Positions 5,905 through 23,250 of a stretch of 39,669 nt of DNA are shown here, in pieces (positions within the stretch are counted from its first letter, which is position 1; each line of letters starts with the position of its first letter). Location: contig SYLI01000094.1 in the NCBI GenBank assembly GCA_005809105.1, positions 1 through 39,669 of the forward strand, read 5' to 3'. The notes beneath the pieces are model-generated. The model had not been told where the DNA came from and did not search any database. It saw nothing but the letters and a program-made list of their open reading frames with translations. The translations under genes were made by a program, and so were the position numbers. This DNA is from Verrucomicrobiales bacterium. Its GTDB lineage: Bacteria; Verrucomicrobiota; Verrucomicrobiia; Limisphaerales; UBA1100.

Positions 5905-5989
5905 TTCGATTGCATGGGGTTGGCTCTTGCAGGACAGTGCCGGTGAAGGGCGGCGGCATGAATGCGCCGCCCTAGGAGCCCGAAAACAC

Positions 5990-7105
5990 ATGCGTGCGAT
6001 GGGGTGGCTTTTCTGTGGCATTCTCGGATGCCATTGGGCTTGGGGCGCCGCCTCGTGGCCGATGCACCGGGGCAATCCCGCGTTGAACGGCGTCGCCGCC
6101 GAGGTGTTGCCCGATGCCCTCGTGCTCCGGTGGAAATTCAAGACAGGCGGGCCGGTGAAGTCTTCCGCAGCCATCGTCGACGGCCGGGTCTTTGTGGGGT
6201 CTGATGACGGGCAGGTGTACGCGCTGAACCTCAAGGATGGTGCCAAGCTTTGGGCGCACAACGCGACGGATCCCTTCGAAGCCTCACCGTTGGTGCTGGG
6301 AGGGCTGGTCATTGTGGGGGGAATCGACGGCGTTCTCTACGCGCTCGAATCGGGCACGGGCAAGGTGCGCTGGCAAGTGAAGACGGGAGACAAGATTGTC
6401 GGCGGCGCCAATGTCGTGAAATCGCCCGATGGAAAGACCGACCGCGTGCTCGTCGGCAGCCACGACTATACCCTCTACTGCGTCGAGGCGCGCACGGGCA
6501 ATGAGGTGTGGAAGTACAAGGCGGAGAATTTCATCAACGGCTCGCCGTCGGTGACGCAGGGCCGCACCCTCTTCGGCGGCTGCGATGCGCTGCTGCATGT
6601 GATTGACGTGGCCAAGGGCGAACGCGAGAAGGTGGTGGAGGCCGGTGCCTACATCGCTGGCAGTGCCGCGGTGGACGGCCCGTTGGTTTACGTGGGCCAC
6701 TACGAGAATGAGTTTCTCTGCATCGACATCAAGGAGGGCCGGGTGGTGTGGAAGTACCGCGACCGGCAGTTTCCCTACAACTCGTCCCCGGCGTTGACCA
6801 AGGATCGCGTGATCTTCGGCGGGCACGACAAGCGGCTGCACTGCCTCACCCGCGCGAAGGGCGAGGTGATGTGGGTGTTTAACACGCGCGGACAGGTCAA
6901 CAGTTCGCCCGTGGTGTGCGGGCAGCGCGTGCTCGTGGGCAGCAACGACGGGCGACTCTACATGGTCTCGCTGGCTGACGGCGCGCGCGTGTGGGATTAC
7001 GAGACCCAGGATGCCATCACCGCCTCCCCGGCCGTGGCCGAAGGGCATGTGGTGGTTGGCAGCGAGGATGGCCACGTGTATTGCTTTGGTGCCCGCAAGC
7101 CATGA
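5990..7105 (+). CDS. Eight-bladed PQQ-type beta-propeller protein
   Basis: This is a 371-residue exported propeller. ATG 5990 is preferred over the earlier in-frame ATG because it is preceded by AGGAG (5974-5978) and begins a signal peptide (MRAMGWLFCGILG, with cleavage after WGA). Eight successive blades can be counted by the recurring pattern V-x-V-G-s-x-D-g-x-[LV]-Y-[AC], followed about 10 residues later by a Gly-x-x-x-W turn. Examples are VFVGSDDGQVYAL, VIVGGIDGVLYAL, VLVGSNDGRLYMV and VVVGSEDGHVYCF. It probably acts in the periplasm as a binding scaffold. Its stop overlaps the radical SAM start (ATGA, 7102-7105), so the two are translationally coupled. This may be the first gene of the long downstream operon. 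Confidence 0.82.
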   Translation: MRAMGWLFCGILGCHWAWGAASWPMHRGNPALNGVAAEVLPDALVLRWKFKTGGPVKSSAAIVDGRVFVGSDDGQVYALNLKDGAKLWAHNATDPFEASPLVLGGLVIVGGIDGVLYALESGTGKVRWQVKTGDKIVGGANVVKSPDGKTDRVLVGSHDYTLYCVEARTGNEVWKYKAENFINGSPSVTQGRTLFGGCDALLHVIDVAKGEREKVVEAGAYIAGSAAVDGPLVYVGHYENEFLCIDIKEGRVVWKYRDRQFPYNSSPALTKDRVIFGGHDKRLHCLTRAKGEVMWVFNTRGQVNSSPVVCGQRVLVGSNDGRLYMVSLADGARVWDYETQDAITASPAVAEGHVVVGSEDGHVYCFGARKP

Positions 7106-8439
7106 TGGCCGCCCCTTCCGCTTCTGCCGTTCCGCCGCTGGAAGCCCCGACGGCCGCGGGCAATTACTTCGTCTCCAACTATCCTCCGTTCTCGTTCTGG
7201 AAGCCGGACCGCGTGGGGGAGGTGGCGGCAGCCCTGCGCCGCCCACCGGCGCCGGGCACGGAGCTGGGCGTGTACCTGCACATTCCCTTTTGCCGGAAGC
7301 GCTGCCACTTTTGCTACTTTCGCGTCTACACGGACAAGAACGCCGCCGCCATCAAAGCGTATCTGGACGCGGCGTTGGACGAGCTGAGCCTCTACGCGGC
7401 GCAACCCTTCATCGGCGGGCGGCGCGTGGGCTTTGTGTACTTTGGTGGCGGCACACCATCCTACCTGTCGGTGGAGCAGTTGCGATATTTGACCGAGGGC
7501 ATGAAGGCGCGGCTGCCGTGGGACAGCGCGGAGGAGGTGACCTTCGAGTGCGAGCCGGGCACATTGACGGAGGAAAAGCTGCGTGCCATCCGCGGCATGG
7601 GCGTCACGCGGCTGAGCCTAGGTGTCGAGAATTTTGACGACCACATTCTGGAGATCAACGGGCGCGCGCACCACGGCAAGGAGATCGATCGCGCCTACGC
7701 CGCCGCGCGCGAGGCGGGGTTCCCGCAAATCAACATCGATCTCATTGCCGGCATGGTTGAGGAGACGGAGGCCAACTGGCGGCAGTGCGTGGCCCGAACG
7801 CTGGAGCTGGCGCCCGACAGTGTCACCATCTACCAGATGGAAGTGCCCTACAATACCACGCTGTACCGGCGCATGCAGGAGGAAGGCAAGCTCACCGCAC
7901 CCGTCGCAGACTGGGAAACCAAACGGCGCTGGGTGCAGTTTGCGTTCGAGCAGCTGGAGCAGGCCGGCTACACCGTGGGCAGCGCGTACACAGCCGTGCG
8001 CGACAAGGCACGCACGCGATTCGTCTACCGCGACCAGCTGTGGGCGGGGGCGGACCTCCTGAGTCTGGGCGTGGCCAGCTTCGGCCACATCGGCGGTGTG
8101 CATTATCAGAACCACCATGACTTCGACCCGTACGTGGCCCGCGTGCAGGCGGGGGAGTTTCCCCACTACCGCGCGCTGACACCCAGCGAGGAGGAGCGCC
8201 TCATCCGCGAATTCATCCTGCAGCTCAAGCTGGGCTCGCTGAGTTTGCGGTCCTTCGCGAACAAGTTCGGCGTCGACCTTCGCACGCGCTTCGCCGAGCC
8301 CTTGGAGCGCCTACGCCAGTGGGGATTCCTCTGCGTCGAGGGCGACACCCTGCGCATGAGCCGCGAGGGGCTGCTGCAGGTGGATCGGCTGCTGCACGAG
8401 TTCTTCCTCCATGAACATCGCAATGCGCGATACGCGTGA
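7102..8439 (+). CDS. HemN/HemW-like radical SAM protein
   Basis: This 445-residue protein belongs to the coproporphyrinogen III oxidase-like radical SAM family. The cluster-binding motif C-x3-C-x2-C is at C64, C68 and C71 in YLHIPFCRKRCHFC. A GGGTPS motif follows at about 118-123, as in HemN and HemW, and a HemN C-terminal-like region lies near residues 350-440. The fourth Cys of true HemN (CxC) is absent. Homologues act as haem chaperones (HemW), methyltransferases or cyclopropane-forming enzymes, so haem synthesis is not assured. Its setting beside chorismate-lyase-like, halogenase-like and ligase genes favours a tailoring role in a biosynthetic pathway. The start ATG 7102 overlaps the previous stop, and a second ATG follows immediately. 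Confidence 0.85.
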   Translation: MMAAPSASAVPPLEAPTAAGNYFVSNYPPFSFWKPDRVGEVAAALRRPPAPGTELGVYLHIPFCRKRCHFCYFRVYTDKNAAAIKAYLDAALDELSLYAAQPFIGGRRVGFVYFGGGTPSYLSVEQLRYLTEGMKARLPWDSAEEVTFECEPGTLTEEKLRAIRGMGVTRLSLGVENFDDHILEINGRAHHGKEIDRAYAAAREAGFPQINIDLIAGMVEETEANWRQCVARTLELAPDSVTIYQMEVPYNTTLYRRMQEEGKLTAPVADWETKRRWVQFAFEQLEQAGYTVGSAYTAVRDKARTRFVYRDQLWAGADLLSLGVASFGHIGGVHYQNHHDFDPYVARVQAGEFPHYRALTPSEEERLIREFILQLKLGSLSLRSFANKFGVDLRTRFAEPLERLRQWGFLCVEGDTLRMSREGLLQVDRLLHEFFLHEHRNARYA

Positions 8440-8446
8440 GCTTGCA

Positions 8447-9040
8447 ATGACCCACCGCCCGATGGCCGCCGAAACCCCGCCCGACACCAAGCCCGGCGCC
8501 GTGTCGCCCCTATTGTTTCCGCTGGACGAATTTTACGTCCGGCAAGGGCGTGCCGTGCCCGCCGCAATCGCTCTCGAGGGTGTTGACGTTCCAGAGCCTT
8601 ACCGGTCGCTGCTGGTTCATTCGAACGACATGACGCCCACTCTCGAGGCGTTCCACGGCGACACCCTCCACGTGCACGTGCTGTACGCCGAGGAGCGCGG
8701 CGACCATTATCATCGCGAAGTTCTCCTCGAGCTGGACGGCACGAACCGTGCGGTGGAATACGGCGCCATCCGGATCAACCTCGCCTTGCTTCCGGCGGAC
8801 GCGCGCCGCGATGTGCTGGCCGCGCGCCAGCCGCTGGGGCACATCCTTCGGGCCCACCGCATCGCCCATGCCAGCCGGCCCAAGGCCTATCTGCGCTTCG
8901 TGGCCGACGAGCACATTGGTGGTGTGCTGCGGCTCAGCGATCGCCCCGTGCTCTTTGGCCGGCGCAACACACTGACCGAACGCGGCAATCTGCCGCTGGC
9001 GGAGATTGTGGAAATCCTGCCGCCTGAGCCCGCCTCCTAG
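8447..9040 (+). CDS. Chorismate lyase-like protein (UbiC/DUF98-type)
   Basis: The protein has 197 residues. The central and C-terminal parts follow the order seen in UbiC. REVLLEL (R90-L96) matches the REILL strand that carries the chorismate-binding Arg. Next come PLGHIL (129-134), LFGRR (169-173) and a final LAEIVEILP (184-192) holding a candidate catalytic Glu. Chorismate lyases convert chorismate to 4-hydroxybenzoate and pyruvate. The fold is also shared by non-catalytic UTRA domains, so activity is inferred. Nearby PaaK-like ligase and 4HBT thioesterase genes fit an aromatic acid product. Several in-frame starts exist (8411, 8423, 8447, 8462). I use 8447, which avoids overlapping the radical SAM gene. 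Confidence 0.65.
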   Translation: MTHRPMAAETPPDTKPGAVSPLLFPLDEFYVRQGRAVPAAIALEGVDVPEPYRSLLVHSNDMTPTLEAFHGDTLHVHVLYAEERGDHYHREVLLELDGTNRAVEYGAIRINLALLPADARRDVLAARQPLGHILRAHRIAHASRPKAYLRFVADEHIGGVLRLSDRPVLFGRRNTLTERGNLPLAEIVEILPPEPAS

Positions 9041-9049
9041 TCGTTCCCG

Positions 9050-10324
9050 ATGCCAGCGGATACCGAATCTCTGGACGCGGTTATCATCGGCGCGGGCCCG
9101 GCGGGTTCGGCCGCCGCCACCATCCTGGCCGAGCATGGCCGGCGCGTGCTGGTGATCGAGCGCGAACAATTCCCGCGCTACCACATCGGCGAGTCGCTCA
9201 TCCCCTTTTCCTATCACCCGCTTGAGCGGCTGGGCCTCATCCCGCGCCTCGCGGCGTCGGCCTTCCAGAAAAAGTACAGCGTCGTGTTCGTGCAGCCCAA
9301 CGGTCAGGCCAGCCAGCCCTTCTATTTCTTCAACCGATACGACCGCGACACGGTGGCCCAGACCTGGCAGGTGGTGCGCGCCGAATTTGACCTCATGTTG
9401 ATGGAGAATGCGCGGGCCAAGGGCGCGCGCGTGCTGGAACAAACAACCGTGACCGGACTGGTGCGCGAGGGCGGGCGCGTCGCGGGAGTGCGCACGCGGC
9501 ACGCGAACGGAACGGAGGGAACCTTCCTCGCTCCTGTCACTCTCGATTGCACGGGCAAGGAAGCCCTGAGCGCGGTGGGGCAGGGCTGGCGCGTCAAGGA
9601 TCCGTTTCTCAACAAGGTCGCGGTGTGGACGTACTACCGGGGTTCGCGCCGCGAAACGGGCATTGATGAGGGACAGACGACGGTCGCCTTCGTGCCGGAT
9701 AAAGGTTGGTTCTGGCACATCCCCCTGCACGACGACCGCGTCAGTGTCGGCGTGGTGGCCGAGGGCAAATACCTCTCGCGCGGGGGCGTGCGCGATGCGG
9801 GCGCGATGTTCCGGCGCGAGATCAGCCAGAACGCGTGGGTGGCCGATCACCTCTCGATGGGTGAACAGACGGGACCCTACTATCTTACCAGTGAGTTTTC
9901 CTTTCACGCCCGCCACTGCTACAGCCCCGGGCTGTTGCTGGCCGGCGACGCATTTTGTTTCCTCGATCCAGTGTTCTCCAGCGGACTCATGCTGGCGCTC
10001 AAGAGCGGGGTGATGGCGGGCGACGCGGTTCACGCCGCGCTGGAGGCGGGCGACCTCTCGCCGGCCCGGTTTGTCGAGTACGGCCGCGACCTGCGCACTG
10101 GCATCGAGAACATGCGCAAGCTCGTGTACGCGTTCTACAATCCGGAATTTTCTTTCAAGGACGTGATTGAGAAATTCCCCGACGCGGCGGGGGAGATCAC
10201 CGACTGCCTCTCCGGCGACGTGGGGAAGGACTTCACCCGGCTGTGGGAGCGTGTGAGCCAGTTCGTGCCGCTGCCCGAATGCCTGCCCCTGGGCGCGCCG
10301 CTTGCGGAGGTGGGCGCGCCATGA
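9050..10324 (+). CDS. FAD-dependent halogenase-like oxidoreductase
   Basis: This is a 424-residue flavoprotein. The N-terminal Rossmann motif GAGPAG (residues 14-19) and the following E36 bind FAD. GESLIP (48-52 region) is typical of the flavin-dependent halogenase/geranylgeranyl-reductase group. Two motifs regarded as hallmarks of flavin-dependent halogenases are present: W-x-W-x-I-P at W220-P225 and F-x2-P-x2-S-x-G at F304-G312. A Lys pair at K74-K75 lies in the region where halogenases place their catalytic Lys, but alignment is needed to decide. Related enzymes occur in aryl-polyene and xanthomonadin-type clusters, and some family members oxidise without halogenating. It starts 9 bases after the chorismate-lyase-like gene and overlaps the glycosyltransferase start (ATGA). 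Confidence 0.8.
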   Translation: MPADTESLDAVIIGAGPAGSAAATILAEHGRRVLVIEREQFPRYHIGESLIPFSYHPLERLGLIPRLAASAFQKKYSVVFVQPNGQASQPFYFFNRYDRDTVAQTWQVVRAEFDLMLMENARAKGARVLEQTTVTGLVREGGRVAGVRTRHANGTEGTFLAPVTLDCTGKEALSAVGQGWRVKDPFLNKVAVWTYYRGSRRETGIDEGQTTVAFVPDKGWFWHIPLHDDRVSVGVVAEGKYLSRGGVRDAGAMFRREISQNAWVADHLSMGEQTGPYYLTSEFSFHARHCYSPGLLLAGDAFCFLDPVFSSGLMLALKSGVMAGDAVHAALEAGDLSPARFVEYGRDLRTGIENMRKLVYAFYNPEFSFKDVIEKFPDAAGEITDCLSGDVGKDFTRLWERVSQFVPLPECLPLGAPLAEVGAP

Positions 10325-11631
10325 ACCTCCTTCAGATCACGCCGGGTGCGGGCAAGATGTACTGCGGAAACTGCTTCCGCGATAACACGCTGGTGGCCGC
10401 GCTGCGCCAGGCGGGTCATTCGGTGACCCTTCTGCCGCTCTACCTGCCGCTGACGCTGGAAGAGGCGGATCAGAGCGCGGGCACGCCGCTCTTTTACAGC
10501 GGTGTCAACGTGTACTTGGAACAGGTGCTCCCCCTCTATCGCCACGCGCCGCGATGGGTGCACCGGTTGGCGGGTTCGAGGCGGGTGTTAAACTGGGCTG
10601 CCGGTCGCGCCGCCAAGACACGCGCAGCGGATGTGGGCGAGCTCACCCTTTCCATGTTGCGCGGCGAATCTGGAAACCAGTCTTGTGAGCTGGACGAGAT
10701 GTTGGCTTGGCTGCAGACCCAGCCCCGGCCGGATGTGGTCTGCCTGTCCAATTCGCTGCTGCTGGGCATGGCTCGAAATCTGCGCTCCGGATTGCACGCG
10801 CCCATTGTCTGCCAGCTCCAGAACGAGGAAGCCTTTGTGGATCAAATGCCCAATGGGCTTCGTGAGCAGGTGTGGGAACTCATGGCGGAGAGCGCGCGCG
10901 ACGTGGCGGCCTTCGTGGCGCCCAGTCGTTATTACGCCAGCCGAATGCAGTCGCGCCTGCGCATCCCTGCAGACCGGCTTCATGTCGTGCCCAACGGTAT
11001 CAATCCCGCCGGCTTCGAGGCCGCCAGCGCGCCGCAACACCCGCCGGTGCTGGGCTATTTCTCGCGCATGTGCCGCGACAAGGGGCTGGATACGCTGGTG
11101 GACGCGTACATCCTGCTGCGAGGGCGCAATCGGATGTCGCAGCTCAAGCTGCGGATTGGCGGTGGCTGCGGGCCCGGCGACGAGCCGCTCGTGAAGGAGC
11201 TGCGCCAGCGGCTGGATGCGCACGGACTGCTGGGCGACGTGGATTTTCAGCGCAATCTGGATCGCGCGGACAAGCAGCGCTTCCTCGCGTCGCTCTCGGT
11301 GCTATCGGTGCCCGCGAGGTTTGGCGAGGCGTTTGGATTCTACGTCATCGAGGCCATGGCCGCGGGCGTGCCCGTCGTGCAGCCGCGCTGCGCATCCTTT
11401 CCGGAGCTGGTCGAGGCCACCGGCGGGGGCGTGTGCTACGATCCGCCCGGTGCGTCCGATGCGCCCGCGTTGGCGGCGGCATTGGAAGATATGCTGAAGG
11501 ATCCCGCCCGCGCCCGCGCCATGGGATTGCAGGGGCGACAAGTCGTGCTGGATCGCTTCACCCACACGGCCATGGCGCGGACCATGGCGGCCCTCTTTGA
11601 ACAGGTGTCCACTCAACCCCAGCCCTTCTGA
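10321..11631 (+). CDS. GT4-family glycosyltransferase
   Basis: The protein has 436 residues and a GT-B architecture. The N-terminal acceptor domain opens with a Gly-rich loop, and the segment GKMYCGNCFRDN (residues 12-23) resembles one I recall from a subgroup of planctomycete and verrucomicrobial glycosyltransferases. A retaining GT4 signature follows in the C-terminal domain: E-x7-E at E336-E344 (EAFGFYVIE), then MAAGVPVV and a donor-site region around FPELVEATGGG. It should transfer a sugar from a nucleotide donor to an acceptor that the sequence does not reveal. Translational coupling to the halogenase-like gene (ATGA overlap, 10321-10324) suggests glycosylation of the same product or a lipid carrier. 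Confidence 0.88.
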   Translation: MNLLQITPGAGKMYCGNCFRDNTLVAALRQAGHSVTLLPLYLPLTLEEADQSAGTPLFYSGVNVYLEQVLPLYRHAPRWVHRLAGSRRVLNWAAGRAAKTRAADVGELTLSMLRGESGNQSCELDEMLAWLQTQPRPDVVCLSNSLLLGMARNLRSGLHAPIVCQLQNEEAFVDQMPNGLREQVWELMAESARDVAAFVAPSRYYASRMQSRLRIPADRLHVVPNGINPAGFEAASAPQHPPVLGYFSRMCRDKGLDTLVDAYILLRGRNRMSQLKLRIGGGCGPGDEPLVKELRQRLDAHGLLGDVDFQRNLDRADKQRFLASLSVLSVPARFGEAFGFYVIEAMAAGVPVVQPRCASFPELVEATGGGVCYDPPGASDAPALAAALEDMLKDPARARAMGLQGRQVVLDRFTHTAMARTMAALFEQVSTQPQPF

Positions 11632-11635
11632 TGCT

Positions 11636-12061
11636 ATGGCCAGCGAATTCTGCATCCAACGCCGCGTCGAGTTCAGCGAGACCGACATGGCCGGCATCGT
11701 GCACTACGCAAATTTTTTCAGGTACATGGAGACGGCCGAGCATGCGTTCTTTCGCTCGCTGGGCACGTCCATCGTGGATGCCTCGCTGGGTGTGGGCTGG
11801 CCGCGGGTGCACGCCGAGTGCGACTACCGGCGCCCGCTGCACTTTGAGGATGAAGTCACGGTGCGCCTGCTGGTGGAGGCCAAGCATGCGCGGAGCCTGC
11901 GCTACCAGTTCCGGTTCCTGCGCCAGAACGAGGAAGTCGCGCGCGGCGCGCTCACGGTCGTCTGCGTCAGGCGCGACGCCGAAGGCAAGATGAAGGCCAC
12001 GGATATTCCCGCTGCCATCTCCGGGCTCATCGATATGGCCGATGCCACGCAGCTTGAATGA
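11636..12061 (+). CDS. 4HBT/YbgC-type acyl-CoA thioesterase
   Basis: This is a 141-residue hot-dog fold protein. The segment F-S-E-T-D-M-A-G-I-V-H-Y-A-N-F-F-R-Y-M-E holds the 4-hydroxybenzoyl-CoA thioesterase signature, with catalytic Asp at D17. The length matches YbgC and 4HBT enzymes (about 130-145 residues). It should hydrolyse an acyl- or aroyl-CoA or a carrier-protein thioester. Similar thioesterases are regular members of aryl-polyene clusters. The start is ATG 11636, 4 bases after the glycosyltransferase stop. An earlier in-frame start would overlap that gene and adds non-conserved residues. Together with the nearby AMP-forming ligase it suggests an activated aromatic acid intermediate. 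Confidence 0.88.
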   Translation: MASEFCIQRRVEFSETDMAGIVHYANFFRYMETAEHAFFRSLGTSIVDASLGVGWPRVHAECDYRRPLHFEDEVTVRLLVEAKHARSLRYQFRFLRQNEEVARGALTVVCVRRDAEGKMKATDIPAAISGLIDMADATQLE

Positions 12062-12116
12062 TGCGGGTGACAAACGGTTTGAAGTCCCTCCACCCGCCCA
12101 CTACATTGCCCCCCGC

Positions 12117-12683
12117 ATGATGACGGCCAACACTTCCGTACCCTTTCCCGCGTGGCTCTGCTGGGCACTGCTCACGGTCGCGTGCTGGGGCATCTACGGC
12201 ATCTTCCTCCACTCCGGCGCACAGGGCATGGCCGACGCCGAGACGGGGCGCATCAAGGCGTTTCTGTGGGTGGGCTTGGCGTATTTCCTCACGGCGGTGC
12301 TGGCACCGCTTGTGATCCTCAAGCTGCGGGGCGCGTCGCTGGCATTCTGGGCCTATCCCGCAGCGGGCATGGGATGGTCGCTCGTGGCGGGCATTCTTGG
12401 CGCGGTGGGCGCGCTGGGGGTACTGCTGGCCTTTGGCGCGGCGCCAAAGCCCACACCGCTTTATGTGCCAGTCGTCATGTCCATCATCTTTGCCGGCGCG
12501 CCCATCGTAAACGCCGTGGTGTCCACCACCCGGGAGCATCATTGGCCGCACGTCAAGGCGCCCTTCCTGCTGGGAATCGTGCTTGCGGCCGTGGGGGGCT
12601 ACCTCGTCACCAAATACAAGCCTACGCCGCCCGCCAAGTCTGCCGGCGCGGCGCCCACGACACAGGCCGGCGCCGCCCGTTAG
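12117..12683 (+). CDS. Small DMT/EamA-like membrane protein
   Basis: This is a 188-residue integral membrane protein with about five predicted membrane spans: residues near 12-31 (WLCWALLTVACWGIYGIFL), 44-66, 74-104, 112-136 and 142-162. A short, Pro/Ala-rich cytoplasmic or periplasmic tail follows. The W-G-x-Y/F pattern in the first helix and the repeated Gly-rich helices resemble one half of a drug/metabolite transporter, which normally has ten spans. It may therefore work as a dimer. The function is not assignable. It starts at tandem ATGs (12117, 12120), 55 bases after the thioesterase, and ends 13 bases before the ligase. Confidence 0.7.
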   Translation: MMTANTSVPFPAWLCWALLTVACWGIYGIFLHSGAQGMADAETGRIKAFLWVGLAYFLTAVLAPLVILKLRGASLAFWAYPAAGMGWSLVAGILGAVGALGVLLAFGAAPKPTPLYVPVVMSIIFAGAPIVNAVVSTTREHHWPHVKAPFLLGIVLAAVGGYLVTKYKPTPPAKSAGAAPTTQAGAAR

Positions 12684-12696
12684 AGGTTTTTGCGAT

Positions 12697-13959
12697 ATGG
12701 GTTCCCCCGGCCACGGCCGCGCCGACGAGCAGCTCGCCCGCCTTCGCGCCCTGCTTGCCGCTCTACGTCCGGCCAACTCGTTTTACACCTCCAAGCTTGC
12801 GGCCGCCCACGCCCCCGCGGATGTGTCGAGCCTAGCGGAGTTTGCCGAGCGGTTCCCCTTCACCACCAAGGCGGAATTGGTGGCAGACCAAGCCCAGTAC
12901 CCGCCCTACGGCCGCAATCTTTCCTTCCCCGTGGCGCAGTACACGCGCTGTCATCAGACGAGCGGGACTCGCGGTGCGCCGTTGCGCTGGCTGGACACCA
13001 AGGAGAGCTGGCAGTCCATGGTGGATTCGTGGAGGACCGTCCTTTCCGCCGCGGGCGTGCACGCGGGCGACCGCGTTTTGTTTGCGTTCTCCTTCGGGCC
13101 CTTCCTCGGGTTCTGGCTGGCCTTCGACGCCGCGGTGCAGACGGGCTGCCTCTGCTTTCCCGGCGGCGCGCTCTCCAGCATCACGCGCCTGCGGCTCTTG
13201 CTGGAGAACCGCGTTACCGTGCTCTGCTGCACCCCCACCTATGCGTTGCACCTGGCGGAGGTGGCCGCGCGTGAGCAGGTGAATCTGCGGGAGGGATGCG
13301 TGCGGGTGTTGCTGGTGGCGGGCGAGCCCGGCGGCAGCATCCCGTCGGTTCGGGAACGGCTTCAGGCGGCCTGGCCGGGCGCGCAGGTGTTTGATCACCA
13401 TGGCATGACCGAGACCGGGCCGGTGAGCTTTCAATCGGTCGACCATCCTGATTGCTTGGAGGTGATGGAGGGCGACTACCTCGCCGAGGTGGTGGAGCCT
13501 TCCAGCGGCGCGCCCGTGGTAGCGGGGCAGGCCGGCGAACTGGTGCTGACAACGCTGCAACGCACGGCTTCGCCGGTGCTGCGCTACCGTACCGGCGACC
13601 TCGTGAAAGCGCTGCCCGGCGCCGGTCCCCTGCGGCTGGCCGGCGGAATCCTGGGGCGCGTGGATGACATGGTCATCATCCGTGGCGTGAATGTCCATCC
13701 AACGGCCGTGGATCACATCTTGCGCCAGTTCCACGAGATTGCCGAATACCGCGTTCGCGTCACCCGCGAGGGCGCGCTGTCGGGGCTCATCATCGAAGTG
13801 GAGCCCTCGCATGGCGCTGCGCTCTCCGTCGCCTCGGTCGAGGAAGCACTGCGCGCGGCTTTGGGCCTGCGCGTGCCGGTGAAGTTGATGCCCGCCGACA
13901 GCCTCCCGCGATTTGAATTGAAGGCCGCGCGGTGGATTGGAGAATCCTCCCATGCCTGA
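12697..13959 (+). CDS. PaaK-like AMP-forming acyl/aryl ligase
   Basis: This is a 420-residue member of the adenylate-forming superfamily, closest in layout to phenylacetate-CoA ligase. The phosphate-binding loop reads TSGTRGAP at residues 88-95, where the usual second Thr is Arg. The motif HGMTETGP is the adenine-binding A5-type motif. The YRTGDLV segment carries the ribose-binding Asp, and GRVDDMVIIRGVNVHP marks the hinge into the C-terminal domain. It should activate a carboxylic acid as an acyl-AMP and pass it to CoA or another thiol. An aromatic substrate such as 4-hydroxybenzoate is inferred from neighbours only. The start is ATG 12697, because the longer frame would overlap the membrane-protein gene. 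The stop overlaps the next gene by 8 bases. Confidence 0.85.
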   Translation: MGSPGHGRADEQLARLRALLAALRPANSFYTSKLAAAHAPADVSSLAEFAERFPFTTKAELVADQAQYPPYGRNLSFPVAQYTRCHQTSGTRGAPLRWLDTKESWQSMVDSWRTVLSAAGVHAGDRVLFAFSFGPFLGFWLAFDAAVQTGCLCFPGGALSSITRLRLLLENRVTVLCCTPTYALHLAEVAAREQVNLREGCVRVLLVAGEPGGSIPSVRERLQAAWPGAQVFDHHGMTETGPVSFQSVDHPDCLEVMEGDYLAEVVEPSSGAPVVAGQAGELVLTTLQRTASPVLRYRTGDLVKALPGAGPLRLAGGILGRVDDMVIIRGVNVHPTAVDHILRQFHEIAEYRVRVTREGALSGLIIEVEPSHGAALSVASVEEALRAALGLRVPVKLMPADSLPRFELKAARWIGESSHA

Positions 13960-14641
13960 ATCGCAGCCGCTGGTGCGCCTGGAAGCCGTGTCGAAGGAAT
14001 ACCCCGGTCACGACGGGGCCGTGCTGACGGTGCTCGCTGACCTCTCGCTTGCAATCCACGCCGGTGAGTCGGTCGCCGTGACCGGCCCCTCCGGGTCGGG
14101 CACGAGCACGCTGCTCAACCTCATGGGCGCGCTGGATCTGCCCACGCGCGGCCGTGTGTGGTTGCAGGGCGAAGACCTGGCGGCGTTGGATCGCGACCAG
14201 CTCGCCGCGCTGCGCAACCGCGCGCTGGGTTTCGTCTTCCAAAGCCATCACCTCCTGCCGCAGTGCACCGTCATGGAAAATGTGCTCTTGCCCACGCTGG
14301 CGCGGGGGCGCGCCGATGCAGAGGCGCCCTCGCGCGCGCGCCGACTGCTTGATCGTGTGGGGCTTTCCAACCGCATGGCGCACCGGCCCGGAGAGCTTTC
14401 TGGGGGTGAGCGGCAGCGCGTGGCGGTGGTGCGTGCGCTTATCAACCGCCCGCGGCTGCTGCTGGCTGACGAGCCAACGGGTGCGCTCGACCACGCCACG
14501 GCCCAGTCGCTCAGTCATTTGCTGGTGGAGCTTAATCGTGAGGAGCAGGTGACCCTGGTCGCCGTGACGCATTCGCCCGATCTGGCGCGCTGCATGAACC
14601 GCCAGTTCCAGCTTTGCGAAGGCCGCCTGCGAGAGCCATGA
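13952..14641 (+). CDS. ABC transporter ATPase (LolD/MacB-type) with altered Walker A
   Basis: The protein has 229 residues and is the usual size of LolD/YbbA ATPases. The Q-loop FVFQSHHLLPQ, signature LSGGERQRVAVVRAL, Walker B LLLADEPTGALD and the switch His in VTH are all intact. Walker A reads GPSGSGTST, so residue 51 is Thr (ACG, 14102-14104) where nearly all family members have the catalytic Lys. A single A-to-C change would explain it, so it may be a sequence error or a real inactivating or adapting change. The start ATG 13952 has GGAGAA just upstream and overlaps the ligase stop. It pairs with the permease that follows (ATGA overlap). Confidence 0.88.
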   Translation: MPESQPLVRLEAVSKEYPGHDGAVLTVLADLSLAIHAGESVAVTGPSGSGTSTLLNLMGALDLPTRGRVWLQGEDLAALDRDQLAALRNRALGFVFQSHHLLPQCTVMENVLLPTLARGRADAEAPSRARRLLDRVGLSNRMAHRPGELSGGERQRVAVVRALINRPRLLLADEPTGALDHATAQSLSHLLVELNREEQVTLVAVTHSPDLARCMNRQFQLCEGRLREP

Positions 14642-17600
14642 CACGCTGGACTCTCATCGCGCGCAGCCTGCGCTTCCACGCCCGTTCGCACGCGGGCACG
14701 GTGCTGGGCGCGGCCGTGGCGGCGGCGGTGTTGACCGGCGCGCTGGCTGTGGGCGACTGCGTGCGCCACACCCTGCGCCGGCAGGCGCTGGAGCGGCTGG
14801 GGAAAATCCATGCGGCGCTGATTCAGCATGACCGCTACTTTCGCGCGGCGCTGGCAACGGAGATGCAGGAGACGACGGCTGGCGCCCCGCTACTGGTTGC
14901 CGCGCTGCGCCTCAATGCCACGGCGCAGCACCCCGAATCCAAGGCGCGCGCCAGTCAGGTGCAGCTCATGGGGGTCACGGACGATTTCTGGAAGTGCGCG
15001 CCGTCCGGCAGCCCTCCCGTCGCGCTCGCTGCAGAAGGCGCGCTGATTAATCCACGGCTGGCCGCGCAGCTGAATCTGAAGCTGGGCGACACCTTCTCGA
15101 TGCGCATCGCCAGGCCCAGCATCCTCCCGCGCGACGCGCCTCTGGCGCTGGCGGAAGACCTGACGGTGCGTTTGAGACTGCGCGTGGCGGGCATTCTGGA
15201 CCCTCAATCGCAACTGGCCGACTTCAACCTGCGGCCCGGCGCGACGCCCCCGCACAACGTGTTTGTGAGTCTCGACTGGCTGCAGAAAGAGGCCGAAATG
15301 CCCGGGCGCGCCAACGTGCTGCTCGCCGCCGCCGGCGACACGGGCGCCGCGACTTCCGCGATTCTGGCACAAGCCAACACGAGCTTAAGAAAGCACTGGC
15401 AGCTGGCCGATGCCGAACTGGAGCTGCGCGAACTTCCACAGCACGACGTGCTCGAGCTGCGCACCGGCCGCATCTTTCTGGATCCACCCGCGCTGGAGGC
15501 GGCGCGCGGCGCGGGCAATGCCACGCAGACCGTGCTCACCTACCTGGTCAACGAAATCCGCTCTGGCAATCACACCGTACCCTACTCGATGGTGACGGCT
15601 CTGGAATCCTCGGCGCCGCCCTTGGCAGACTTTCCCAATCTGGGGACGCAAGGCGTGGTGCTCACCCAGTGGCTGGCCGAGGAATTGGGTGCGCGGAAGG
15701 GAGACCCCTTGAGCCTGTCGTATTACGTGCTGGGGATGAATCGACAGCTTGAGGAACGCAACGCAACCTTCACCGTGGCGGGCGTTGTGCCCACGTCGGC
15801 GCACGGTGGCGACCGCGAGCTCATGCCCGACTTTCCCGGCATTGCCGGCGTGGATGAAATCCGCAATTGGGAACCGGGGATTGACGTGGATCTCAAGAAA
15901 ATCCGTCCGCAAGACGAGGCGTATTGGAAGGAACACCGCGGCACACCCAAGGCCTTCTTGTCGTGGGACGCCGGGAAGGCCCACTGGGCCAACCGCTACG
16001 GCGCCGCCACGGCCGTGCGCTACGAACTTGGCCCCGGCCGACACCAGGAAATCGAAGCGGCGCTGCGGCAGCGTCTGGATCCTGCGGCGATTGGCTTGCA
16101 GTTTCGCGACGTGCGCACCTTCGCGCTGGACGGCCGGTCAGCCAACGACTTTGGCGTACTGTTCGTCAGCTTGAGTTTTTTTCTCATCACGGCGGCGTTG
16201 CTCCTCATGGGACTGCTCTTCGCCTTTGGCACCGAGCAGCGTGCGCCGCAATGGGGCACGATGCTGGCCATTGGATTCACGGGCCGCCAAGTAGGCACGC
16301 TGGTTCTGCTCGAGGGAGCGGTGCTCGCCGTGTTGGGGTCCGGACTGGGTGCGCTGGCGGGGCTGGGATACACGCACCTCTTGACGCGCGGGCTGGGCAC
16401 CATTTGGGCGGGCGCGTTGGGAGCCGGCAGCATTGATTATCATGTGCTGCCGGTAACCGTGGTGGTGGGGATGTGCGGCGGCATCGTCATGGCGCTTTTC
16501 ACCGTCTGGCTGACCTTGCGCCGGCTTCGACAAGCGCAGGCCGCCACCCTGCTCAACGCCGGAATGCATCTGGCGCGGCCGCAGCCCGGAGCCTCTCGTT
16601 CCGGCGCTCTCACCGCCGCCCTTTGTCTGTGCGGCGCGCTCGTGCTGGCGTGGAGCATGAAGGGCGCGGCAGGGCAGGCCAAGGCGGGAGGATTCTTCGG
16701 CGCCGGCGCGCTGCTTCTGGCATCGGGCATTGGCGCGTGTCACGCGTGGCTGGGAGGGCTGGCTTCGGCGGGAGGGACAGGCTTTGCCTCGCTGGGTGCC
16801 ATGGGTTGGCGTGCTGGCGCGCGCCGTCGCGGGCGCAGCCTGGCGTGCGTCAGCCTGCTGGCATGCGGCGTCTTTCTGGTGGTGGCCGTCGGTGCATTCC
16901 GAGTTCCGCCGGAACAGGGCATGGGAACACGCACTTCGGGCACGGGTGGGTTCGCCTTTTTTGGCATTGCCGATGCAGCGGTGTTGCACGACCTAAACAC
17001 CTCGGCCGGGCGCGAGAAGATGGCGGTGAACGAATCCAAGGTGCCGGCGGGCACGCTGGTGCCACTGCGCCTGCGCGAGGGCGACGACGCCAGTTGTCTC
17101 AACCTCAACCAGCCGCGTGAGCCGCGCGTGCTGGGCGTTCAACCCGCGCTCTTGGCCCGTCGCGGTGCGTTTACCTTTGCCGCCGAGGAAGCGGGCGGGG
17201 ATCGACTCCACGGCTGGGATCTGCTCTCCCGTCGCTATGCCGACGGAGCCGTTCCCGGTGTGGTGGACTTGAGCACGGGGCAGTGGGCACTGCACAAGCG
17301 AGTCGGCGACACACTGGACTATCCCGACGAGCGCGGCGGCACCTTCCGCATCCGCATCGTGGGTATGCTGGCCCATTCCATGTTGCAGGGCGACCTGCTG
17401 ATCGCCGAGGATCAGTTCGTGCAACGCTTTCCCTCTGCCGCGGGTTATCGCGTGCTGCTGGTGGATGCCGCGCACGCCGACGCCGCGCAGGCAGCGCGAA
17501 AGGAGCTGGAGTTTGCCCTCGAGGATCACGGATTGGAACTCACGGCCGCCACCGACCGTCTGGCAGCCTTCAGCCGCGTTCAGAATACCTACCTCGACAT

Positions 17601-17967
17601 TTTTCAGGCCTTGGGTGGTCTCTCGCTGCTGCTGGGCAGTGCCGGGCTGGGCGTGATGGTGCTGCGCAATGTGCTGGAGCGTCGCGGCGAACTGGCACTC
17701 ATGGAAGCCGTGGGATTTGGCAGGGGCGCGTTGCACTGGCTGGTCTGGGCCGAACACGGCGGATTGCTGGCGATGGGAACACTCGCAGGCGTGATGTCGG
17801 CCCTGCTGGCGGTGTGGCCGGCCTTGGATGCGCCAGGTCACGGGATGCAGCCTTCGGCGATTGCCCTCACGGTGGGCGCCATCCTCCTGAGCGGAATGGT
17901 CTGGATCGGGCTGGCGACCTCAATGGCTTTGCGCGGCGAGCTGCTGCCCTCGCTGCGCAGCGAATGA
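14638..17967 (+). CDS. Large FtsX/MacB-type ABC permease
   Basis: This is a 1109-residue membrane protein. A first membrane span lies near residues 20-40 (AGTVLGAAVAAAVLTG). A long extracytoplasmic domain runs to about residue 505. A group of spans follows at about 510-650, with further spans and a second extracytoplasmic region, and three C-terminal spans of FtsX type end the chain (LGGLSLLLGSAGLGVMVLRNVL onward). The layout is of the type VII/MacB-YbbP kind, which drives extraction or export of lipids, peptides or lipoproteins by mechanotransmission rather than by a channel. It is much longer than LolC/E (about 400 residues) and MacB (about 650). Coupled translation with the ATPase indicates one transporter. 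Cargo is unknown, though the product of the preceding biosynthetic genes is a reasonable guess. Confidence 0.85.
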   Translation: MTRWTLIARSLRFHARSHAGTVLGAAVAAAVLTGALAVGDCVRHTLRRQALERLGKIHAALIQHDRYFRAALATEMQETTAGAPLLVAALRLNATAQHPESKARASQVQLMGVTDDFWKCAPSGSPPVALAAEGALINPRLAAQLNLKLGDTFSMRIARPSILPRDAPLALAEDLTVRLRLRVAGILDPQSQLADFNLRPGATPPHNVFVSLDWLQKEAEMPGRANVLLAAAGDTGAATSAILAQANTSLRKHWQLADAELELRELPQHDVLELRTGRIFLDPPALEAARGAGNATQTVLTYLVNEIRSGNHTVPYSMVTALESSAPPLADFPNLGTQGVVLTQWLAEELGARKGDPLSLSYYVLGMNRQLEERNATFTVAGVVPTSAHGGDRELMPDFPGIAGVDEIRNWEPGIDVDLKKIRPQDEAYWKEHRGTPKAFLSWDAGKAHWANRYGAATAVRYELGPGRHQEIEAALRQRLDPAAIGLQFRDVRTFALDGRSANDFGVLFVSLSFFLITAALLLMGLLFAFGTEQRAPQWGTMLAIGFTGRQVGTLVLLEGAVLAVLGSGLGALAGLGYTHLLTRGLGTIWAGALGAGSIDYHVLPVTVVVGMCGGIVMALFTVWLTLRRLRQAQAATLLNAGMHLARPQPGASRSGALTAALCLCGALVLAWSMKGAAGQAKAGGFFGAGALLLASGIGACHAWLGGLASAGGTGFASLGAMGWRAGARRRGRSLACVSLLACGVFLVVAVGAFRVPPEQGMGTRTSGTGGFAFFGIADAAVLHDLNTSAGREKMAVNESKVPAGTLVPLRLREGDDASCLNLNQPREPRVLGVQPALLARRGAFTFAAEEAGGDRLHGWDLLSRRYADGAVPGVVDLSTGQWALHKRVGDTLDYPDERGGTFRIRIVGMLAHSMLQGDLLIAEDQFVQRFPSAAGYRVLLVDAAHADAAQAARKELEFALEDHGLELTAATDRLAAFSRVQNTYLDIFQALGGLSLLLGSAGLGVMVLRNVLERRGELALMEAVGFGRGALHWLVWAEHGGLLAMGTLAGVMSALLAVWPALDAPGHGMQPSAIALTVGAILLSGMVWIGLATSMALRGELLPSLRSE

Positions 17968-17984
17968 ACGAAATGGAGGACACC

Positions 17985-18638
17985 ATGAATCACGCAAGCA
18001 AACGCACCGTGCTGCTGGTGCTGGTGGTGGCAACCGCGCTGACGGCGGCGCCGAAGGCTCCCGATCCACAGCGGGTCTTTGCTGAGGACTTCAGCCGGGC
18101 TGAAGCGCTGCCTGATACGCTGCTCATTTTGAATGGCGAATTTGCCCTGCGCAGCGAGGGCGGCAACCGGTTCTTGGAATTGCCGGGGACGCCGCTGGAT
18201 CAGTACGGCATCATGTTTGGCCCGACGCGGCAGGCGGGAGATCGGGTGTCGGCTCGATTTTGGGGCACGCGTGCGGGCCGGCAACAACCCGCGTTTGGCG
18301 TCGGGCTCAACGGGGTCGGCGGCTACCGGCTGATGATCAGCGCGGCCAAGCGCAGGCTGGAGCTTCTCAAGGGCGATGTGGTCGTCGCTGGCGCCGATTG
18401 GATTTGGACCACGGGCCGGTGGGCGCATCTCTCGCTGCAAGTGCGTGCCATGGCCGCCGACAAGTGGCGTGTGGAAGGCAAGGCATGGATGGAAGGCGAA
18501 CGCGAGCCGGAGGGCTGGAATGTCGTTTGGAATGAGGATGCAATGCCTGCCCCCGGCCGCGCCAGCGTGTGGGCGCATCCTTATTCGGGCACGCCCATCC
18601 GGCTGGATGACCTGCGCGTGGTGCCGGCGGCACCCTAA
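17985..18638 (+). CDS. Exported protein of unknown function
   Basis: The protein has 217 residues. The start at ATG 17985 is chosen over 17964 and 17973 because a perfect GGAGGA (17975-17980) sits 4 bases upstream and the product begins with a signal peptide (TVLLVLVVATALTAAP). The mature protein is rich in beta-strand-like segments and Trp, such as GRWAHLSLQVRAM, which recalls concanavalin-like sandwich proteins of the DUF1080 type common in planctomycetes. I do not see catalytic residues. It follows the ABC permease by 17 bases and may be the last gene of the operon. It might be a periplasmic partner of the transporter, but that is a guess. Confidence 0.72.
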   Translation: MNHASKRTVLLVLVVATALTAAPKAPDPQRVFAEDFSRAEALPDTLLILNGEFALRSEGGNRFLELPGTPLDQYGIMFGPTRQAGDRVSARFWGTRAGRQQPAFGVGLNGVGGYRLMISAAKRRLELLKGDVVVAGADWIWTTGRWAHLSLQVRAMAADKWRVEGKAWMEGEREPEGWNVVWNEDAMPAPGRASVWAHPYSGTPIRLDDLRVVPAAP

Positions 18639-19532: not shown

Positions 19533-20300
19533 TCAGCGCACGTACGCGGGGTCGTAGACGCGCCCCACTGCTGACTTGCGCAACAGTGCCGTGAACCGCG
19601 CAAGCCCCGACTTCTCTGGGTTTTCCAGCCCATAGTGCAAATTCGAGGTGAGGTACGTCCGGCGCGTCGACTCGTCGTAGCGTGGATACGAGGCGATGAT
19701 CTGCTGCAAATCCCCTAGCCCCCGGGCCCTGGCTTGGCGCAGCTTCTGGCGCAGAGCCGCGTCGTGCGCGCCCCGGCGCAGCGCCCACACCGCGTAGACA
19801 AAGGGCAGGCCGGTGAGCTCATGCCACGCCGCCCCCAGATCCCAGATGGTGTGGTCGTGGGGCGAGTCGAGAAAATCCAGCCCCGCATTGCCGATGAGCA
19901 GGACGAAGTCATGGTTTGCTGCAGTGCCCGGATCCTCAAGCGGCAGCAGTTGCGGTGCGAGTCCACGCTGGGAGAGCAGCACGCGCAAGAGGTTTACGCT
20001 TGTCAACGAGGCGGTGTCACAATAAATCGCCTTCGCCTCTTCGATCGGGCGGCGGTGCGCCAAGAACACACTGCGGACAGCACCATGCGAAGCCACGGCG
20101 ATGCCATCGAGGATGTCGTAGCCCTCCGTCAACAGCACGGCCGTGACACTCAAGAGCGCCGCATCCACCTCTCCTTCATGAAGCAGCTTGGCCAGCGCGG
20201 AGGGCGGAGCGAAGATCGTGTCGCCCTCGATGCCATGGGTGAGCGGAGCGGAATTGAGGAAGGGTACCGAGCCAATGCGCGGGCGCGCGGGGTTGTTCAT
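19533..20300 (-). CDS. mqnA: Chorismate dehydratase MqnA
   Basis: The 255-residue protein has the periplasmic-binding-like fold of MqnA, which removes water from chorismate to give 3-[(1-carboxyvinyl)oxy]benzoate, the first step of the futalosine route to menaquinone. The N-terminal IGSVPFLNSAPL motif and the S-V-T-A-V-L segment are typical of MqnA. The Asp/Thr-rich region around YCDTASLTSVNLLRVLL is also as expected. The start ATG at 20300 overlaps the mqnE stop (ATGA), so the longer upstream frame is rejected. The neighbouring mqnE, ubiA-like and ubiX genes confirm the pathway assignment. Confidence 0.9.
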   Translation of the reverse strand: MNNPARPRIGSVPFLNSAPLTHGIEGDTIFAPPSALAKLLHEGEVDAALLSVTAVLLTEGYDILDGIAVASHGAVRSVFLAHRRPIEEAKAIYCDTASLTSVNLLRVLLSQRGLAPQLLPLEDPGTAANHDFVLLIGNAGLDFLDSPHDHTIWDLGAAWHELTGLPFVYAVWALRRGAHDAALRQKLRQARARGLGDLQQIIASYPRYDESTRRTYLTSNLHYGLENPEKSGLARFTALLRKSAVGRVYDPAYVR

Positions 20301-21463
20301 GCGGTGGCGAGATTGTGGTCGAGCAGCGGCGACCGGCCGCCCGCATCTGGCAGGGACGGCGCGCCGGCTTCGCCCCACTCGCGCACGGGTTCATAAAACG
20401 TGTTTCGCTGCACGGCGGTTCTCCCCACTTCGCGGATGGCCTTCACCATGTCGGCCTCCGATTGACACTGCGGCGTGGGCGCGCCGGCCATGTGGAAGAT
20501 GTGCTCCTCAAGGATCGTGCCGTGCAGGTCATCGGCGCCAAAGCTCAAACCCACCTGCGCGAGCTTGAGCCCCATGCCCACCCAGTAGGCGGTGATGTGG
20601 TCGAAGTTGTCCAGATACAGACGGCTCACGGCGAGCGTGCGAAGCTGGTCAAATCCCGTGGGCGGATGATCCACGGGCACCTGGTTGTTCTCCGGCTGAT
20701 AGGGCAGGGGGACGAACCCCGTGAAGCCGTGCGTCTCATCCTGCAGGGCGCGCAGCTGGCGCAGGTGGTCAACGCGGTCGGCGGGCGTCTCGACATGGCC
20801 AAAGAGCATCGTGCAGGTGCTGCGTCCCCCCAGCCGGTGCCACGCGCGATGCACCGCCAGATACTCTTCGGCAGATTCCTTGCCGCGCGCAATCGCCTGA
20901 CGCACCTCCTTGTTAAAAATCTCCGCTCCGCCGCCCGTGAGCGAATCGAGCCCGGCGTCTTTAAGTTCGATGAGCGTTTGCTCGACGGATTTCCTTCCCT
21001 GCCAGGCGAGGTGCAGGATTTCGATGGCCGTGAAGCATTTCAATTGCAGCCGGGCGTCAAGTGCCTTGAGCGCGCGCAGCATCTCCACGTAGTAGCCAAA
21101 CGGCAGCGTGGGGTGCAGCCCGCCCACGATGTGCAGCTCCGTGATGCCCAGCGCCAGCGCCTCGCGCGCTTTGGCGACCATCTGCTCCACGGACAGCTCG
21201 AAGCCATCGGCGTCGCGCTTCTTGCGCGCAAAGGAACAGAACTGGCAGGAGAGGATGCAGTAGTTGGAATAGTTGATGTAGCGATTGAGGATGTAGCTGG
21301 CGCGGTTGCCCACCTTGCGCGCGCGGGCTTGGTCGGCCATCGCACCCACGGCATTGAGGTCCTTGGACTCGAAGAGGCGCAACGCGTCGGCTTCCGACAA
21401 TCGCTCGCCCGCCGCCACCTTCTCGCGCAGGCCATGCAGTGCAGTGTCTTCGCCTCGGCGCAT
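20297..21463 (-). CDS. mqnE: Aminofutalosine synthase MqnE (radical SAM)
   Basis: This is a 388-residue radical SAM enzyme. The C-x3-C-x2-C cluster is at C69, C73 and C76 (YCILSCQFC). GGLHPTLPFGYYVEML is characteristic of the MqnE/MqnC/CofH group. MqnE joins the MqnA product to SAM-derived adenosine to form aminofutalosine, acting in the cytoplasm. The assignment as MqnE rather than MqnC rests on the close coupling to mqnA and on overall resemblance. It begins one base after the ubiA-like stop and its own stop overlaps mqnA, so the three genes form a compact operon. Confidence 0.88.
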   Translation of the reverse strand: MRRGEDTALHGLREKVAAGERLSEADALRLFESKDLNAVGAMADQARARKVGNRASYILNRYINYSNYCILSCQFCSFARKKRDADGFELSVEQMVAKAREALALGITELHIVGGLHPTLPFGYYVEMLRALKALDARLQLKCFTAIEILHLAWQGRKSVEQTLIELKDAGLDSLTGGGAEIFNKEVRQAIARGKESAEEYLAVHRAWHRLGGRSTCTMLFGHVETPADRVDHLRQLRALQDETHGFTGFVPLPYQPENNQVPVDHPPTGFDQLRTLAVSRLYLDNFDHITAYWVGMGLKLAQVGLSFGADDLHGTILEEHIFHMAGAPTPQCQSEADMVKAIREVGRTAVQRNTFYEPVREWGEAGAPSLPDAGGRSPLLDHNLATA

Positions 21464-22478: not shown

Positions 22479-22540
22479 GGGCCCGACATTGCTCAAGGCT
22501 TGGCCAAAACTCAAGCCCGCGCCCGGAATGAAGCGCGCCG

Positions 22541-23101
22541 TCAGTCTGCCGGTTCATCCGCCCAGCGCGGGCCGATGTCGTGCGTCAGTCCCAGATGGTC
22601 GAGCACGCGGGCCACCACCGTGTCCGCCAGTTCCTCCAGCGTGCGCGCGCCGGAGTAGAAATACGGGTTGGCCGGCAGGATGGTTGCGCCGGCCAGCAGC
22701 AGCAGCTCCATGTTTTTGACATGGACTAAATTGAGCGGCGTCTCGCGGGGCACGAGGATCAGCCGCCGCCGCTCCTTGAGGCAGACATCGGCCGCGCGCA
22801 GCAGCACGTCGGTGCTGAAACCGTGCGCGATGCGGCCCATCGTGCCCATCGTACAGGGAATCACCACCATCGCATCGGGCGCATGGGTGCCGCTGGCGAA
22901 GGGCGCGTTCATGCTCTTGATGGCGTGCTGGTGCGCTCCTTCGGGCACACGAAGGCCACCGGGCAATTCCCCGGCCAAAACCTGCTGCGCGTACGGGCTC
23001 ATCACCAGGTGCAACTCATGCTGGCGCGCGTCGATGCGGTCCAGGAGGCGCTGGGCGTAGATCGCCCCGCTGGCTCCGGTGATGGCCACGAGCAGTTTCA
23101 C
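22541..23101 (-). CDS. ubiX: UbiX-type flavin prenyltransferase
   Basis: The protein has 186 residues, the normal UbiX length. It begins with VKLLVAITGASGAIYAQRLL (FMN-binding loop) from a GTG start at 23101. The segment PCTMGTMGRIAHGFSTDVLLRAADV is the conserved UbiX core, and LVPRETPLN carries the phosphate-binding Arg. UbiX makes prenylated FMN, the cofactor of UbiD-type decarboxylases. In futalosine organisms UbiX and UbiD homologues are linked to the late decarboxylation step. No ubiD is present in the window. It is the first gene of the mqn operon on this strand. Confidence 0.9.
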   Translation of the reverse strand: MKLLVAITGASGAIYAQRLLDRIDARQHELHLVMSPYAQQVLAGELPGGLRVPEGAHQHAIKSMNAPFASGTHAPDAMVVIPCTMGTMGRIAHGFSTDVLLRAADVCLKERRRLILVPRETPLNLVHVKNMELLLLAGATILPANPYFYSGARTLEELADTVVARVLDHLGLTHDIGPRWADEPAD

Positions 23102-23250
23102 GAGGCAAGTGCGTTCATCGCCCCGGCAGAATAATCCACCGCCGTGATCGGCGACAAGGCGACAGGATGGAGAAATCGGCTCGACCTTTCCGTGCAAGAT
23201 GCGTACGGTTCGTTCCGGTCGTTCGCGACATGAAGGGGAGGTTAAGACCA

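Follow-up and report, generated by a model that had tools for sequence, protein, structure and literature searches.

A divergent chorismate-lyase-like protein linked to a radical SAM enzyme and a halogenase-like flavoenzyme in Verrucomicrobiota

What does a protein resembling chorismate lyase do in a bacterium that makes its menaquinone by the futalosine route? The question is raised by a small gene in a 39,669-nucleotide stretch of Verrucomicrobiales DNA (the whole stretch is called the window here). A sequence-only reading of that DNA had proposed that the protein is not needed for ubiquinone, and that it either serves some other use of 4-hydroxybenzoate or binds a ligand without catalysis. 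Of these two proposals the first is favored by the evidence described below. The protein likely acts as a catalytic chorismate lyase and feeds 4-hydroxybenzoate into a dedicated pathway; this is our best reading, and we infer both the reaction and the later steps from the predicted fold, the pocket residues and the neighboring genes. The features of the window that enter into the argument are collected in Table 1.

Table 1. Genes and codons of the window that bear on the argument
Feature	Position	Strand	Basis or remark
PQQ/BamB-type beta-propeller protein	5927..7105	+	commonly precedes the radical SAM gene; TTG start assigned mechanically
HemN/HutW-like radical SAM enzyme	7102..8439	+	PF04055, HemN_C; nearest solved proteins HemN 1OLT and NocN
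Divergent chorismate-lyase (DUF98/UbiC fold) gene, 197 aa	8447..9040	+	homologues, conserved residues, predicted fold
Met62 codon (UbiC Met34 counterpart)	8630..8632	+	invariant in 75 sequences; aligned to UbiC
Arg90 codon (UbiC Arg76 counterpart)	8714..8716	+	invariant in 75 sequences; aligned to UbiC
Glu189 codon, proposed catalytic Glu	9011..9013	+	invariant in 75 sequences; aligns with AF1396 Glu
Flavin-dependent halogenase-like enzyme	9050..10324	+	PF04820; nearest solved proteins halogenases
GT4-type glycosyltransferase	10321..11631	+	PF00534, PF13439; recurring neighbor
4HBT/YbgC-type thioesterase	11636..12061	+	PF13279; NCBIfam YbgC types below cut-off; start chosen by reading
Recurring protein without Pfam match, membrane-like by reading	12042..12683	+	
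PaaK-like AMP-forming ligase	12697..13959	+	PF00501, PF14535; start chosen by reading
LolD-type ABC ATPase	13937..14641	+	257.5 bits, below LolD cut-off of 307.75
FtsX/MacB-type ABC permease	14638..17967	+	PF02687, PF12704
Small protein without Pfam match, cluster end	17973..18638	+	relatives in 7/80 loci
mqnA and mqnE, futalosine menaquinone route	19533..21463	-	NCBIfam, PF02621
UbiA-like prenyltransferase beside mqnE	21465..22514	-	TIGR01475 above cut-off; MqnP models below theirs

The open reading frame is present as the sequence-only reading gave it, with an ATG at 8447, a stop codon at 9038-9040 and a product of 197 amino acids. An alternative in-frame ATG lies upstream at 8411, and its use would mean an overlap with the radical SAM gene. 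The reported placement between a radical SAM enzyme and a halogenase-like flavoenzyme is also correct: the radical SAM gene stops at 8439, leaving a gap of 7 bases to the lyase gene, and 9 bases separate the lyase gene from the flavoenzyme ATG at 9050. Homologues with 34-100% identity occur in 45 of 58 genomes (the window's own genome and 57 relatives from its order), and a scan of GTDB genomes gave 264 confirmed lyase stretches, which together argue that the frame is a real gene. A profile of the lyase family was positive in 12 of 288 genomes drawn evenly from the phylum, the window's own genome included, and in 5 of 29 genomes from the class of one planctomycete. The family is thus frequent in the window's order and patchy elsewhere. 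In one locus (L180, G280:C1:57623-58045) the lyase match contains two in-frame stops next to cluster genes that look intact, and this copy is possibly a pseudogene or an assembly error. Several other loci (L076, L078, L084, L095, L117 and others) are titled Klebsiella pneumoniae, Akkermansia muciniphila, Proteobacteria or Acidobacteria; these titles look wrong because the encoded proteins are 50-57% identical to the window protein, and the metagenome bins concerned look misnamed or mis-binned.

The protein has no Pfam match up to E 10 and no NCBIfam match up to E 0.1, and it is missed both by the UbiC chorismate lyase profile PF04345 (at E 10) and by PF01947, the DUF98 profile that carries the Pfam name Rv2949c-like. 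Neither profile found a match elsewhere in the window's own genome (PF04345 at E 1), but as both profiles miss this protein too, the result says little about a second lyase. Among 240 genomes of the phylum, two had a PF01947 match, one of them above cut-off. The family assignment comes from structure prediction. The 80 best of the 264 GTDB stretches (L066-L145) were taken as a set of loci, and an alignment of 75 sequences, consisting of the window protein and 74 of these loci with six left out, yielded an AlphaFold2 model with a mean pLDDT of 91.0 and a pTM of 0.86. The top Foldseek matches of the model are chains of AF1396/DUF98 (E 3.7e-8), followed by UbiC entries at E 4e-4 to 1.5e-3 that are interspersed with UTRA domains. 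With VIA-align 2, the closest fold is again AF1396 of Archaeoglobus fulgidus (2NWI; Z 17.0, rmsd 1.9, 143 residues aligned), a protein described as Pfam DUF98 and probably a member of PF01947, while four UbiC entries reach Z 11.4-12.2 (1G81 with Z 12.2 over 141 residues).

At the sequence level these relationships are distant. Identity is about 22-23% with AF1396 and about 20% with UbiC, and the hmmsearch match of the lyase family to AF1396 is weak (E 0.057). An hhalign comparison of the 75-sequence alignment with UbiC gave E 4.6e-4 and a probability of 32.7, in an alignment that ends before the glutamate; against a PF01947 domain found within the phylum (L183) it aligned just 24 columns. In a comparison with 2NWI, a PF01947 domain of this phylum gave a match at E 1e-7. 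The lyase also differs from AF1396 in having 48 residues before the matched part, and the fold matches barely test its first 49 residues. Judged by the predicted model, the family is chorismate-lyase-like and nearest DUF98. The original label of the protein therefore stands by fold, to DUF98 and UbiC alike, and fails by Pfam and NCBIfam profile; a fold unlike that of UbiC was looked for and not found.

The catalytic reading depends on the pocket. In E. coli UbiC, 4-hydroxybenzoate is bound by Arg76, Glu155 and the amides of Met34 and Leu114 (PMC7879144). The hhalign comparison pairs Met62, Arg90 and the PLG motif of the lyase with UbiC Met34, Arg76 and Leu114, and the counterpart of the last, Leu130, is kept in at least 90% of the 75 sequences. 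These residues for binding 4-hydroxybenzoate are retained in loci titled Verrucomicrobia as well as in loci titled Planctomycetota. The C-terminal Glu189 is one column off UbiC Glu155 in the alignment, and it aligns without a gap, in the same motif run, to the C-terminal glutamate of AF1396. The lyase shares with AF1396 a C-terminal glutamate that stands before the final proline, a feature that would mark the DUF98 family. Glu189 is the candidate catalytic residue because two distant relatives (L179 and L181) replace Glu186 but retain Glu189. An arginine and a C-terminal glutamate, candidates for the active-site pair that the sequence-only reading had asked for, are thus invariant in all 75 sequences, though the glutamate does not fall in the very column of UbiC Glu155.

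The fold and the pocket also bear on the proposal that the protein is non-catalytic, a ligand-binding protein of the chorismate-lyase/UTRA fold that acts, for example, as a sensor or a carrier of an aromatic intermediate. UTRA domains match the model with Z 8.4-13.0, equal to or above UbiC, and the one-column offset of Glu189 would also fit a protein that binds without cleaving. However, the nearest fold is DUF98 and not UTRA (Z 17.0 against 13.0), and the winged-helix DNA-binding domain that UTRA regulators of the GntR/HutC type carry at their N terminus was not found: the roughly 50 residues before the matched fold hold one short helix (26-32) in the AlphaFold2 model and no Pfam match, too little for the usual DNA-binding domain to fit. 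The retention of the UbiC ligand residues across loci titled with two phyla likewise argues against this proposal, which we regard as rather unlikely, and another use of 4-hydroxybenzoate is favored over it.

A second alternative keeps catalysis and changes the substrate, making the protein a lyase or mutase that acts on a related enolpyruvyl or chorismate-like compound and gives, for example, 3-hydroxybenzoate or another aromatic acid. The distance of the family from both AF1396 (23%) and UbiC (20%) leaves room for such a change, and the neighboring genes do not fix the substrate. Against it, the pocket residues for 4-hydroxybenzoate are retained, and the chorismatases known to yield 3-hydroxybenzoate adopt a different fold. 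We consider this alternative improbable.

If the lyase makes 4-hydroxybenzoate, its classical uses are ubiquinone and aryl polyene pigments. The mqnA and mqnE genes are where the sequence-only reading had placed them, MqnE scoring 456.4 bits against an NCBIfam cut-off of 434.55 and MqnA matching PF02621 with 150.4 bits (and no NCBIfam model at 1e-5). The UbiA-like prenyltransferase beside mqnE is probably MqnP, to judge from its sequence matches, and a gene for a UbiX-type protein lies next to it at 22541-23251. The window's own genome has three UbiA-family genes, namely this menaquinone-linked one, a heme O synthase gene (TIGR01473 above cut-off, and by reading adjoining a heme-copper oxidase gene) and an EboC-like gene that scores below cut-off. 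The earlier view that the lyase is not for ubiquinone fits this inventory. As for pigments, the genome (95.93% complete) has one strong match to the ketosynthase profile PF00109 (165 bits); two further matches are short, covering 40-46 positions with 25 and 22 bits. No ketosynthase was found among the operon proteins scanned. The aryl polyene reading was dropped because the strong matches number only one. Although the thioesterase, the PaaK/FlxY-like ligase and the LolD-type ATPase of the cluster resemble parts of pigment clusters, the other assignments of the UbiA-family genes, the presence of MqnA and MqnE and the lack of more than one strong ketosynthase match make it highly improbable that the lyase supplies ubiquinone or an aryl polyene, and both appear unlikely as its outlet. 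Five other carriers of the lyase have more ketosynthase matches (4 in G030, 7 in G345, 8 in G346, 10 in G054 and 23 in G039); by their listed positions all are off the lyase's contig except in G346, where the distance is more than 190 kb. The frames that hold the many matches of G039 and G054 are very long, which suggests that these relatives encode large polyketide synthases.

The lyase gene belongs to a tight run of genes on the same strand, from about 5927 to 18638, in which the beta-propeller stop codon and the radical SAM ATG overlap. Among solved proteins the radical SAM enzyme is closest to HemN (1OLT) and to the methyltransferase NocN, and with none of the 22 NCBIfam models listed does its score reach the cut-off. 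Its HIPFCRKRCHFCY motif (CX3CX2C) is invariant in 68 of 68 aligned proteins. The nearest solved relatives of the flavoenzyme are halogenases: 8ZOP, 3E1T (which we take to be CndH), ChlB4, CmlS and PltA. A catalytic lysine and a WxWxIP motif mark flavin-dependent halogenases, and here Lys75 is kept in 53 of 54 aligned proteins and GWxWxIP in 54 of 54; all these motif counts refer to distinct proteins of at least 380 or at least 400 amino acids from the window and the 80 loci. Because both features are kept, halogenation is likelier for this enzyme than plain hydroxylation. It counts against the proposed pathway that some of CmlS, CndH and PltA act on carrier-bound substrates, and that a scan of the operon proteins turned up no carrier-protein domain. 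Farther along the run, the PaaK-like ligase is below the NCBIfam cut-offs for PaaK and FlxY. Near the contig end, a single frame at 38443-39564 seems by eye to fuse a low-molecular-weight phosphatase, an RpiB-like protein and a GlyA-like start.

The tie between the lyase and its two neighbors proved stronger than could be seen in the sequence-only reading, and it shows in joint presence and absence, in conserved gene order and in one fusion. Across the 58 genomes, the radical SAM enzyme was detected (at E 1e-60) in 44 and the flavoenzyme in 46, two of the latter being weak matches (G006, 40% identity; G020, 38%) that were scored absent under a requirement of at least 50% identity. In the 35 genomes that are at least 90% complete, the counts for both lyase and radical SAM enzyme, lyase only, radical SAM enzyme only and neither are 27/0/0/8, and in all 58 they are 44/1/0/13; in the sole genome with a lyase only (G049), the lyase begins at base 238 of its contig. 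The corresponding counts for the flavoenzyme are 26/1/0/8 and 44/1/0/13, so that its presence agrees with that of the lyase in 34 of the 35, and the one lyase without it, in G020, is at a contig end. Fisher p-values from these tabulations overstate independence because the genomes are related. In G037, G040, G044 and G051 the flavoenzyme gene is on another contig even though the lyase's contig runs on; G009 and G015, where the lyase is at a contig end and the flavoenzyme gene is likewise elsewhere, were excluded from these separations.

Gene order was followed by tblastn in the best 80 of the 264 loci. The radical SAM gene lies within 3.5 kb upstream in 68 of the 72 loci with room for it (it is missing from L112, L128, L134 and L138), and the flavoenzyme gene within 3.5 kb downstream in 52 of 73; of the other 21, three have it about 5 kb away and one sits at the 45% identity threshold. 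All counted neighbor matches are on the lyase's strand. The 58 genomes and the 80 loci overlap, with at least 16 of 35 fetched stretches being the same DNA as loci. Six loci from one family of the window's class (L173-L178) all have the radical SAM gene, and the 16-20 kb fetched around their lyase genes showed no flavoenzyme; for this reason the radical SAM enzyme and the lyase look like a tighter pair than the lyase and the flavoenzyme. In a member of another class of the same phylum (L172), a single frame of 597 amino acids joins a lyase domain, with motifs DM, YYRE, PLG, YGRRN and EIVEILP, to a flavoenzyme domain that starts at about residue 180 and contains GWFWYIP. As one case in one draft assembly, this fusion may reflect a sequencing error that removed a stop codon. 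A 1123-amino-acid frame in L189 was rejected as a second fusion: it is merely open upstream of the lyase's own start, and the radical SAM and flavoenzyme genes there are separate. Additional HemN-like radical SAM copies with 46-49% identity occur in G043:C66 and G024:C112, two of them in tandem in G043.

Known systems help to place the cluster. In Mycobacterium tuberculosis, Rv2949c catalyzes the formation of p-hydroxybenzoic acid, which an AMP ligase then activates on the way to phenolic glycolipid (PMC7205293). Compared by description, that system resembles ours in combining a lyase, a ligase and glycosylation, and differs in that a polyketide synthase elongates the acid there, whereas a scan of the operon here found no such synthase, in a genome with one strong ketosynthase match. 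E. coli UbiC shares the fold and the Met34, Arg76 and Leu114 counterparts with the lyase; apart from the low identity and the shifted glutamate, it differs in that ubiC is beside ubiA and this lyase gene is not. Marine clusters of the Bmp5/Bmp6 type, in which Bmp6 is presumably the lyase, are alike by description in that one cluster joins a chorismate lyase and a flavin halogenase, as here. The excerpt available for the tetrabromo-biphenyldiol cluster has these two enzymes acting on 4-hydroxybenzoic acid, and it lists a cytochrome P450 and names no radical SAM enzyme (PMC10579414). Planctomycetes, a phylum that also carries the lyase cluster, produce 4-hydroxybenzoate esters and halogenated phenols, among them alichondrichlorin and 3,5-dibromo-p-anisic acid, one of which has a 4-hydroxybenzoate part, and the alichondrichlorin genes are stated to be unknown (PMC12078418); the likeness is one of halogenated compounds and shared phylum, and nothing in these data ties the lyase cluster to either compound. 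A system of chorismate lyase and halogenase is thus of a known kind. The features that look new are the branch to which the lyase belongs, its radical SAM partner and the occurrence in two phyla. A literature search on the cluster found no paper, which is weak evidence of absence in that subscription papers were mostly outside its scope. We know of no product of a pathway with a lyase, a radical SAM enzyme and a halogenase.

The pathway can be pictured as follows. The lyase, as a divergent branch nearest the DUF98/Rv2949c-like family, would convert chorismate to 4-hydroxybenzoate and pyruvate, and the product would enter the dedicated pathway encoded by the gene run rather than ubiquinone synthesis. 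The PaaK-like ligase might activate 4-hydroxybenzoate, the flavin enzyme might halogenate (or hydroxylate) the ring, and the HemN-like radical SAM enzyme might introduce a further change; the glycosyltransferase and the ABC exporter would then finish and move the product. More tentatively, the lyase, the HemN-like radical SAM enzyme and the flavin halogenase may constitute an undescribed system that makes a halogenated, radically modified 4-hydroxybenzoate compound, glycosylated and exported, and that many Verrucomicrobiota and some Planctomycetota have as part of their standing metabolism; a lipid-linked aromatic, a pigment and a new redox cofactor are candidate product classes. The close co-occurrence of the three enzymes marks a widespread pathway in a group from which halogenated compounds and compounds derived from 4-hydroxybenzoate have been isolated. 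Since both Pfam and NCBIfam miss this lyase, the production of 4-hydroxybenzoate is probably under-annotated in these phyla.

The cluster is larger in some lineages. In two loci titled Planctomycetota (L133 and L141), it is preceded by genes for a sodium symporter, an AMP-binding protein, an aldehyde dehydrogenase and an iron-type alcohol dehydrogenase, their families having been scanned in L133 only. The same genes, minus the AMP-binding one, precede the cluster in the ORF calls of L140, and several of them are found in L179-L181, of the window's class, by reading of the protein starts. These additional genes suggest a step from carboxylate to alcohol in those lineages. A right-handed beta-helix protein of about 727 amino acids (L135:7183-9363), with a weak match to a GH141 insertion domain, also recurs near the lyase, with 10 gene calls in L066-L145, often between the lyase and the radical SAM gene.
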